The notes below the pieces were generated by a model, which searched no databases, had not been told where the DNA came from, and saw nothing but the letters and a program-made list of their open reading frames with translations. DNA of 64,000 nt from Pelagibacteraceae bacterium AG-319-F18 (GTDB lineage: Bacteria > Pseudomonadota > Alphaproteobacteria > Pelagibacterales > Pelagibacteraceae): positions 62,001 to 126,000 of the forward strand of contig QBXA01000001.1 in the NCBI GenBank assembly GCA_003283905.1, read 5' to 3'. Position numbers and translations under genes: made by a program. Below, piece by piece: positions 42,630 to 49,996 of this stretch (positions are counted from its first letter, which is position 1; each line of letters opens with the position of its first letter).

Positions 42630-43076
42630 TTATTTAATTTCGATAAGTTTTTTCTTTTTATGTTCTGGAATTATTCTTTCACAAGATATTGTTAAAAGAC
42701 CATCTTTAAGTTCAGCACCATTGACTTTTACATCATCAGCAATAGTAAATGATCTTGCAAATTGTCTTTGAGAGATACCTTTGTGAATAATTTCTCCATC
42801 AACATTATTTTCCTCAGATTTATTAATCTGTTTAGTTCTTACTGTTAATAAATTATCTTCAAACTCAACCTCTACATCATTTTTGTTAAAACCAGCTAAT
42901 GCTACTTCAATAGCATAATTGTCCTTACTAGTTTTTCTGATGTTGTAAGGTGGGTAATTTGACTGCATTGTCAAATTTCCATTTCCAAGCATATTTTCAA
43001 ATTGATCAAACATGTCGTCGAAACCAACTGAAAAAGGCCTTAGAGAGTTAAATATAGATAGATCCTTACTTGTCAT
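42630..43076 (-). CDS. Small heat-shock protein, Hsp20/IbpA type
   Basis: A 148-residue holding chaperone with an alpha-crystallin domain. PPYNIRKTSKDNYAIEVALAGF starts the domain, DNLLTVRT and GISQRQFARSFTIADDV lie in it, and a short tail (EIK) follows the GLLTI strand. The N-terminus DLSIFNSLRPFSVGFDDMF is IbpA-like. A sigma-32 type promoter and a ROSE-like hairpin precede it, fitting heat control at both levels. Confidence 0.93.
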   Translation of the reverse strand: MTSKDLSIFNSLRPFSVGFDDMFDQFENMLGNGNLTMQSNYPPYNIRKTSKDNYAIEVALAGFNKNDVEVEFEDNLLTVRTKQINKSEENNVDGEIIHKGISQRQFARSFTIADDVKVNGAELKDGLLTISCERIIPEHKKKKLIEIK

Positions 43077-43081
43077 AATAT

Positions 43082-43102
43082 CCTCCTTATTTGTTAAGCA
43101 AG
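43082..43102 (-). promoter_or_regulatory. ROSE-like RNA thermometer hairpin over the hsp20 ribosome-binding site
   Basis: In the hsp20 leader, CUUGCUU (43102-43096) can pair with the ribosome-binding site AAGGAGG (43088-43082) across a 7-base loop, with a G-G opposition inside the stem. ROSE elements of alphaproteobacterial small heat-shock genes use the same UYGCU anti-SD with a G-G pair that melts on warming. A second possible stem (GCC/GGC, 43110-43125 region) lies upstream. Not tested by folding. Confidence 0.45.
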
Positions 43103-43139
43103 TTTATTTTATGCAAGCCCCATTAGGCGACTTACAAGA

Positions 43140-43170
43140 GTTATTTAGGAACTAGTTTAAATATTTCAAG
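43140..43170 (-). promoter_or_regulatory. Possible RpoH (sigma-32) promoter of hsp20
   Basis: On the minus strand CTTGAAA (43170-43164) is followed, 17 bases after its CTTG core, by CCTAAAT (43149-43143). This is close to the alphaproteobacterial RpoH pattern CTTG-N17-CYTATNT with one mismatch in the -10 core. It would give a leader of about 57 bases, long enough to hold the ROSE-like hairpin. Confidence 0.4.
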
Positions 43171-48859: not shown

Positions 48860-49996
48860 ATGAAAAAATCAAAAAAAAAGAAAAATTCAGCTAAAAAGAA
48901 AAGTCCAGCTAAAAAGAAAAATTCAGCTAAAAAGAAAAGTCCAGTAAAAAAAACAAAAAAAAACAAAACAAAATTTTTTAAAGCTCAAAAAATTAAAAAA
49001 GAAAATTTCATTTTAAAGATAATTAATTTTCAAAACTCTTTAAAACCTGAAATTAAGTTAAAAATAAATTTTAGCTTAGAAAAATATATACAAGCATTCT
49101 TTGATAAAATTGCAAATACAATATTTGAATATAAAACTTTAAAAAAAGATGAGGCAAGAAGATTAAAATTAGAAAAACAAGAAAATGAAAGATCAGAAAA
49201 AATTGAACTTGAAAATATAAAGCAAAAAGATGAAGAATTAAAAACTAAATTAAAAGAACAAGCATTAAAAGATGAAATTAAATTAGAAAAACAGAGGACA
49301 AAAGACATCAAGCTTTTTTTAAGAAAAGAACAAGCATTGTTAAGAATCGAACAAGCTGAAAAACAAAAACAATTTTTAAAACAATTAAGATTAGAAAAAC
49401 AAATTGATAAATTTAGAATTAGAGAAGTTAAAGAACTTGAAAAGCTTGAAAGAATATCACTAAAAGAAAAAAGAGATGATTATGCTGGATTACAGCAAAG
49501 AATAGAAAAATTAAAAGAAAAATATCGAATTATTAGAGATCAAAAAATTAGAGAAAGAGTAGAGGCTTTAGGAGTAAAAATTCAAGGGAATGAAGATAGA
49601 GAAACATTATTACAAAAAGAGAAAGAATATACTATTGCAAGACAAAAAATAGAATTTGCTCTTGAAAGTTTTTATAGAAGTGCAAGTAGTTTGGTGTTTC
49701 AATTAAATAAACGTCATATTACACGACACATGTCAATATTTCGATGTATTGATAGAAGATTTGAGACTGGAGAGATTTTTATAAAATGGGACGAGTCGAT
49801 AGATGAAGAGTGGTTATTATTAATTTATATAAAAAATAACTCACCAGATGAGGGTATAGTTATTGAAGATAAAACCAATCCTGAGAAAAATATTTCTCAT
49901 GAGTTTAAAAACAATGAAATTTTTAAAGCTTCCGATATAATGGTTGACTCACTCACACAGCTAATAGCTAGAAAAAGAGCAAAAAATAATAATTAA
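48860..49996 (+). CDS. Lysine-rich coiled-coil protein of unknown function
   Basis: I do not recognise this 378-residue protein. The N-terminus holds a lysine-rich tandem repeat (units like KKNSAKKKSPA twice), resembling histone-H1-like or S/T-A-K-P tails. Next comes a long charged helical stretch, probably coiled coil (about residues 90-260, EKQ-rich). The last part is globular (FRCIDRRFETGEIFIKWDE). It might bind DNA, RNA or the cell envelope. The ATG at 48860 is used in place of TTG 48836. Confidence 0.7.
   Translation: MKKSKKKKNSAKKKSPAKKKNSAKKKSPVKKTKKNKTKFFKAQKIKKENFILKIINFQNSLKPEIKLKINFSLEKYIQAFFDKIANTIFEYKTLKKDEARRLKLEKQENERSEKIELENIKQKDEELKTKLKEQALKDEIKLEKQRTKDIKLFLRKEQALLRIEQAEKQKQFLKQLRLEKQIDKFRIREVKELEKLERISLKEKRDDYAGLQQRIEKLKEKYRIIRDQKIRERVEALGVKIQGNEDRETLLQKEKEYTIARQKIEFALESFYRSASSLVFQLNKRHITRHMSIFRCIDRRFETGEIFIKWDESIDEEWLLLIYIKNNSPDEGIVIEDKTNPEKNISHEFKNNEIFKASDIMVDSLTQLIARKRAKNNN
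48870..48945 (+). repeat. Tandem repeat encoding a lysine-rich tail
   Basis: A unit of about 36 bp coding for KKNSAKKKSPAK occurs nearly twice in tandem (AAAATTCAGCTAAAAAGAAA appears as a repeated core), in frame inside the coiled-coil gene. It gives the protein its lysine-rich N-terminus and may vary in copy number. Confidence 0.6.

Follow-up and report, generated by a model that had tools for sequence, protein, structure and literature searches.

A candidate ROSE-type RNA thermometer in the hsp20 leader of SAR11 bacteria, with a probable second partner of its anti-Shine-Dalgarno strand in the coding sequence

Results

The hsp20 locus and its putative RpoH-type promoter

In the window, i.e. 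the entire stretch of 64,000 nucleotides that was analysed, a prolyl oligopeptidase gene is followed on the same strand, after 104 bases, by a gene (42630 to 43076, minus strand) encoding a small heat-shock protein of 148 amino acids (PF00011 HSP20, E = 3.6e-17), here referred to as hsp20. As an earlier note on this DNA had stated, this gene lies directly 3' of the leader described here (43136 to 43077, minus strand; UGUAAGUCGCCUAAUGGGGCUUGCAUAAAAUAAACUUGCUUAACAAAUAAGGAGGAUAUU), the AUG following immediately at 43076. The same genome contains a second, divergent Hsp20 gene (L031, G000:C28:2283-2672; PF00011, 45% identity to the first), and the UYGCU motif described below is absent from the leader of this second gene. 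Elsewhere in the window (48860 to 49996, plus strand), a protein has a very lysine-rich and repetitive N-terminus (KKKKNSAKKKSPAKKK) resembling a histone tail.

Upstream of the leader, CTTGAA at 43165 to 43170 (minus strand; TTGAA at 43169 to 43165) and a hexamer at 43143 to 43148 (minus strand), which starts 16 nt after TTGAA, constitute predicted -35 and -10 elements; we take a TTGAA-type -35 element to be recognized as an RpoH-type motif. An RpoH-like promoter had been proposed in the earlier note, and the comparison of leaders bears this out: TTGAA is present upstream of hairpin I (see below) in all of 101 distinct 120-nt leaders, compared to 10% of shuffled upstream stretches, and its distance to hairpin I is 34 nt in 95 of them; similarly, YYWNAT starts 16 nt past TTGAA in 101/101 leaders and is followed by 7 bases and then hairpin I in 95. 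Because this spacing is fixed, the predicted start of hsp20 transcription is at or next to the base of hairpin I, giving a leader of approximately 60 nt. The rpoH gene scored above cut-off in 25 of 31 genomes, including that of the window (359 bits; cut-off 323.1). Judged by sequence only, with the promoter motif and the rpoH gene both present, hsp20 would belong to the sigma-32 (RpoH) regulon.

The anti-SD strand faces the Shine-Dalgarno sequence

The strand CUUGCUU (43096 to 43102, minus strand), which contains the ROSE motif UYGCU, faces the Shine-Dalgarno (SD) sequence AAGGAGG (43082 to 43088, minus strand) across the 7-nt loop AACAAAU (43095 to 43089, minus strand), with the pairing order C-G, U-G, U-A, G.G, C-G, U-A and U-A. 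This hairpin (hairpin II) agrees exactly with the previous description and is reproduced by ViennaRNA with one extra A-U pair and thus a loop of 5 nt. The central G-G opposition is likewise as described, with G43099 opposite G43085; this G-G geometry is a hallmark of ROSE elements. The fold of 43067-43140 has an energy of -16.3 kcal/mol (z = -2.14) and 5 of 200 dinucleotide shuffles were equally low, which on its own is weak evidence.

Among the 107 same-genus leaders, of which 100 are distinct, CUUGCU is present in 100/100 distinct leaders and AGGAG in 99/100, the exception being UGGAG in L025. In this leader (L025:1948-2062), codon 4 of hsp20 is AGA, the complementarity of the anti-SD strand to the codons (see below) is just 5 bp and the Hsp20 protein has 154 residues; with both partners of the anti-SD strand weakened, control is possibly decaying. 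In genus g6, three of the four genomes with hsp20 have CUCGCU and the fourth has CUUGCU, i.e. the U/C alternative of ROSE elements. In all genera as well as the sister family, the leaders that were read retain UYGCU together with an SD.

Alignment A6, which has 93 distinct rows, comprises 100 of the 133 distinct leaders; L087, which lacks upstream sequence, and L031, the second hsp20, were omitted. The anti-SD G is present in all 93 rows and has a G opposite in 92. The core of hairpin II is nearly invariant and therefore shows almost no covariation, the only double change being from UA to CG in a single row. Thus, the covariation of the stem that the earlier note proposed to look for is almost lacking in the hairpin that it described but, as outlined next, is strong in a second hairpin that it did not mention.

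Hairpin I is supported by compensatory changes

Hairpin I (43112 to 43136, minus strand) has the common form GUAAGUC-G-CC-UAAU-GG-GGCUUAC, with a bulged G at 43128, a UAAU loop and the predicted transcription start at its base. In the 100 distinct same-genus leaders, 673 of the 700 cells of the seven outer pairs are paired and both-side changes occur in six of the seven pairs, compared to 304/700 paired cells when partners were slid by one base and at most 627 in 500 shuffles. This count was laid out from sequence anchors that contain GCC, and the bulged G was therefore checked separately; it is kept in 93/93 distinct rows. In the covariance-model alignment of the 93 distinct rows, both-side changes occur in 9 of 15 pairs and 58 cells, as opposed to 4.7 pairs and 11.8 cells in shuffles, none of 500 of which matched either value, and 32 cells in the best slid version; fitted to the structure, this alignment leans towards it. 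Parsimony on an hsp20 tree with 123 tips gave 22 double changes that preserve pairing; of the single changes, 48 preserve and 25 disrupt it. When partners were slid by one, 5 double changes were found alongside 26 single changes preserving and 22 disrupting pairing, and the slid versions had 5 and 1 double changes versus 22 for the true partners. A first alignment analysed with RNAalifold recovered just 6 pairs of hairpin I; MAFFT had misregistered two anti-SD variants.

Comparison of SAR11 genera, e.g. leaders L164, L163, L166 and L172, shows hairpin I with an enlarged loop and a rewritten stem, but in the aligned rows a G is unpaired two pairs beneath the loop. This unpaired G near the loop may be an unrecognized conserved feature of hairpin I in ROSE elements. 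In total, these comparative data argue that the leader forms a genuine and conserved RNA structure.

The leader accompanies hsp20 in most genomes of the order

Of the 297 genomes of the order, 219 match a covariance model built from 21 same-genus leaders (R1) at E <= 0.01, each with one copy, as in the genome of the window; one of these matches is false. The false match (L177 in G132) is at a locus without hsp20 and is the sole match outside family f1, in the sister family. By comparison, hsp20 is present at 46/46 of the R1 loci L131-L176. Of 16 R1-negative genomes examined among the 78, 15 have no Hsp20 match and the remaining one has only a fragment, located at the edge of a contig. G190, a single contig, as well as G075, G143, G124, G196 and others have neither the element nor this Hsp20, and the gene and its leader seem to have been lost together in several SAR11 genomes. 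In a scan of named genomes with hsp20, 80 of 483 loci encoding a relative were kept, 78 recorded as from Pelagibacteraceae, one from Candidatus Pelagibacter ubique and one from a Pelagibacterales bacterium; we take records under these names to be SAR11, and the window accordingly belongs to SAR11. In viral contigs, an exact search with one degenerate pattern gave no match.

R1 was not built to detect the form of the leader in sister family f2, in which the hsp20 leader has three hairpins. In this form, both-side changes occur in 9 of 27 pairs, all in the first two hairpins, while in the third (AAUC-G-CUU versus GAGGAUU) 8 of 10 pairs are invariant and the other two vary by unpaired cells only.

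The Rfam ROSE models gave a divided answer. The best match of the stretch is RF02523 (ROSE_3) over its full length, but at 28.8 bits (E = 7.6e-4 in 701 bases) it is below the curated gathering threshold of 43 bits, and for this reason the SAR11 leader was not assigned to RF02523. In the entire window, no Rfam family matched at its gathering threshold. Two of 39 scanned leaders of the order, including that of the window, match ROSE_3 at E <= 0.1, the 40th locus being the other hsp20 (L031), and a search with strict filters in 190 genomes from the same class gave one weak match to RF02523 and none above cut-off. RF02523 had no match at E <= 10 in a search of the whole genome of the window, although the direct search of the stretch gives 28.8 bits; presumably the genome-wide search misses the site through its quick first pass. 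As a control, the E. coli ibpA leader matched RF01832 (ROSE_2) with 100.4 bits.

Codons 2-4 of hsp20 are complementary to the anti-SD strand and synonymously invariant

When coding sequence was included in the folding, CUUGCUU also paired inside hsp20, namely with AAGUAAG of codons 2-4 (43065 to 43071, minus strand; 7 bp with one G-U), a complementarity that the earlier note had not remarked on. A complement to the anti-SD strand of 7 or 8 bp is present at codons 2-4 in 146 of 152 leaders, compared to 26 of 52029 positions elsewhere within genes. Genus g5 (8/8 genomes) and the single leader read from g7, both with different N-termini, also have it. It is short or missing in g10 (0 bp in the leader), in g6 (three leaders with 0 to 5 bp), in f2 (0 bp in 20 and 4 bp in one of 21 leaders) and in E. 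coli ibpA (0 bp).

Synonymous constancy was evaluated for codons whose residue is conserved and can be encoded in more than one way, a codon counting as invariant if no gene with that residue uses another. The 137 loci gave 123 distinct hsp20 genes, with identical sequences counted once and genes of other than exactly 148 codons, including that of L025, left out. Of 111 eligible codons, only three are invariant, and these are codons 2-4 (ACA AGT AAG); in a 26-gene subset, the fixed codons are again only 2-4, of 103. At the seven other Lys positions of hsp20, AAA is the commonest codon, and Ser residues elsewhere in the gene are encoded by AGT in a minority of cases. A natural K4R change in L009 uses AGG and in that way preserves pairing with the anti-SD strand. 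On the other hand, type 2 leaders (CCUUGCUA) retain ACA though its third base would be unpaired, which counts against the codon argument. The neighbouring genes were unsuited as controls, with too few loci or a variable N-terminus, and GroEL and TypA were used instead: fully conserved codons are scattered and form no run at the start in either GroEL (6 of 109 in 30 genes, with codon 3, AAA, among them) or TypA (4 of 117 in 28 genes). Since the first five TypA codons are ineligible, the start-proximal control depends mainly on GroEL. In f2, fixed codons are many and spread along the gene (43/109 in 19 closely related genes) and therefore have no bearing on this argument. The frozen codons 2-4, together with the lack of such a run in GroEL and TypA, suggest that the anti-SD strand probably has two competing partners, the SD and codons 2-4.

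Predicted balance between the two helices

In local context, nearest-neighbour energies make the codon helix the more favourable of the two in 145 of 152 leaders, and with 15 nt of coding sequence the SD is predicted to be unpaired in 108 leaders with a median probability of 0.76-0.84 from 5 to 40°C, i.e. with little response to temperature. Longer coding stretches favour the SD helix more, and the balance shifts with the chosen 3' end. For the window leader with 30 nt of coding sequence, pairing of the SD decreases from 0.81 to 0.23 between 5 and 45°C and pairing of the codons increases from 0.01 to 0.51; with 120 nt, the corresponding values are 0.69 to 0.24 and 0.17 to 0.52. With 15 nt, codon pairing dominates throughout the five temperatures; with 60 nt, both helices stay below half. 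In the same model, the E. coli ibpA control opens very little (0.11 at 35°C and 0.14 at 45°C). In the run with this control, leaders began upstream of the likely transcription start; a later run used the window leader and 40 others from the likely start. Given that the ranking varies with transcript length and that the E. coli control does not melt, the model decides neither which helix prevails nor at which temperature.

Discussion

Combining the conservation of the leader with its position between a predicted RpoH-type promoter and a small heat-shock gene, we consider it likely that the 60-nt hsp20 leader of SAR11 is a short ROSE-type RNA thermometer in which the anti-SD strand would pair either with the SD or with codons 2-4. 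The ROSE-like thermometer put forward in the earlier note is in this way supported by architecture, gene and promoter as well as by a leader length like that of short ROSE elements. The leader has three features of the class: (i) it is the 5'UTR of a small heat-shock gene, (ii) it has two hairpins, or three in f2, with the SD in the 3'-proximal one, and (iii) it has a U(U/C)GCU motif imperfectly paired with the SD with a G opposite a G.

In the mechanism that we envisage, RNA polymerase with RpoH would start at or beside hairpin I, which would be a stable 5' fold. In the cold, CUUGCUU would shut the ribosome-binding region in one of two mutually exclusive ways: either imperfectly paired with the SD AAGGAGG, with a G.G mismatch or bulged G in the ROSE arrangement, or paired with AAGUAAG of codons 2-4, forming a clamp whose loop would contain the SD and the AUG. 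Warming would weaken both helices, the 30S subunit would bind and Hsp20 would be made as proteins start to unfold. We infer this repression and its release by heat from the arrangement of the pairing strands, and likewise that codon pairing would act as an additional lock instead of freeing the SD. That the invariant strand is common to the SD and the frozen codons 2-4, making the coding sequence part of the thermosensor, is the reading that we lean towards with some reserve.

Alternatively, pairing of the anti-SD strand with codons 2-4 might free the SD, the RNA toggling between an SD-closed and an SD-open form. The folding predictions with 30 nt and 120 nt of coding sequence, in which warming shifts the ensemble of the window leader away from SD pairing and towards codon pairing, would agree with such a toggle, but the dominance of codon pairing throughout with 15 nt and the lack of a prevailing helix with 60 nt would not. 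Moreover, a helix at codons 2-4 falls within the ribosome footprint and should for that reason hinder initiation. We therefore regard a releasing function of the codon helix as unlikely.

It is also conceivable, if rather doubtful, that the hairpin between the anti-SD strand and the SD alone matters, as in a plain ROSE thermometer, and that codons 2-4 are fixed for other reasons, e.g. translation initiation. The universal presence of UYGCU and the SD in the leaders read, as opposed to the patchy codon complement in g6, g10 and the sister family, fits this explanation, as do the computed stability of the SD hairpin, which is higher than that of the codon helix in the three leaders examined from g6 and g10, and the full conservation of codon 3 in GroEL, although AAA is the preferred codon there. 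It does not account for the observations that the codons fixed in hsp20 are the complementary ones, that AGT and AAG are minority choices, that GroEL and TypA have no such run and that the K4R change in L009 keeps the pairing.

E. coli IbpA represses its own translation. Similarly, the SAR11 leader could mainly be a protein target, e.g. of an Hsp20 that represses its own translation, with temperature acting via that protein. Hairpin I with its bulged G is conserved more strongly than masking of the SD requires, as such a target might be; nevertheless, the SD/anti-SD hallmark is retained, and this explanation, which we consider improbable as the main function, is compatible with a thermometer rather than opposed to it. 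Finally, chance complementarity in an AT-rich leader, for which the shortness of the motifs and the z-score of only -2.14 for the window alone might speak, can be dismissed in view of conservation, covariation and distribution, and is refuted for hairpin I and the conservation of the motif.

We accordingly return to the two-partner thermometer and its relation to known systems. The leader resembles RF02523 (ROSE_3) in having an unpaired G at the same place in hairpin I and ACU-G-CU against the SD. According to the part of the study by Krajewski et al. (2013; PMC3669281) considered here, pairing of U(U/C)GCU with the SD is a hallmark of ROSE elements, and the Pseudomonas ibpA thermometers have two hairpins, are 62 and 61 nt long (62 nt for the mapped P. 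putida ibpA leader) and are sigma-32 dependent. They are thus similar to the SAR11 leader with respect to the small heat-shock gene that follows, the number of hairpins (with hairpin I stable), the length of approximately 60 nt, the sigma-32-type promoter and the pairing in the 3' hairpin. They differ in that the start codon is described as unpaired, and the same part of PMC3669281 names no coding partner. In SAR11 hsp20, by contrast, the anti-SD strand also complements constrained codons 2-4. The E. coli ibpA leader also has UCGCU against AGGAG, and its predicted first 5' hairpin has a cap, G-CC-UGAU-GG, similar to that of SAR11 hairpin I; unlike the SAR11 leader, it has more hairpins, and between its anti-SD strand and the first 15 coding bases there is no run of 4 bp or more. 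Participation of coding sequence in a temperature-dependent fold, as we suggest for hsp20, has a parallel in the thermosensors in the coding regions of E. coli rpoH and cspA, as summarized in the relevant section of a review (PMC4166951). Those folds are long and complex, whereas in SAR11 seven bases of codons 2-4 would compete for a ROSE anti-SD strand. The coding partner, argued for by codon choice and complementarity, would be the new part of the system.

The literature searched holds no description of such an element on SAR11 hsp20. A 2019 study of the SAR11 strain HIMB5 reports 'a possible RNA thermometer' and does not name the gene in its main text (PMC6429828); this candidate may be the hsp20 element. 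A term search of a 2009 RNA study of P. ubique (PMC2704228) found 'thermometer', 'heat shock' and 'hsp' absent, and RNA thermometer candidates are reported, but not named, in the portion of PMC11109978 considered. At its own threshold, Rfam leaves the SAR11 element unannotated, and the alignments together with R1 could extend it. Moreover, a ROSE anti-SD strand can, as the frozen codons suggest, have a second partner inside the gene, and other genes with ROSE elements may merit the same search.

Few cells in the sea are as abundant as those of SAR11, which have very few regulators, with two sigma factors (PMC13198564). Taken together, our data suggest that in these bacteria a heat protein is probably switched on through RNA folding. 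If the proposed thermometer is correct, few RNA thermometers in the ocean would, going by SAR11 cell numbers, be as numerous, and it would directly link ocean warming to the synthesis of a stress protein without a dedicated protein sensor.
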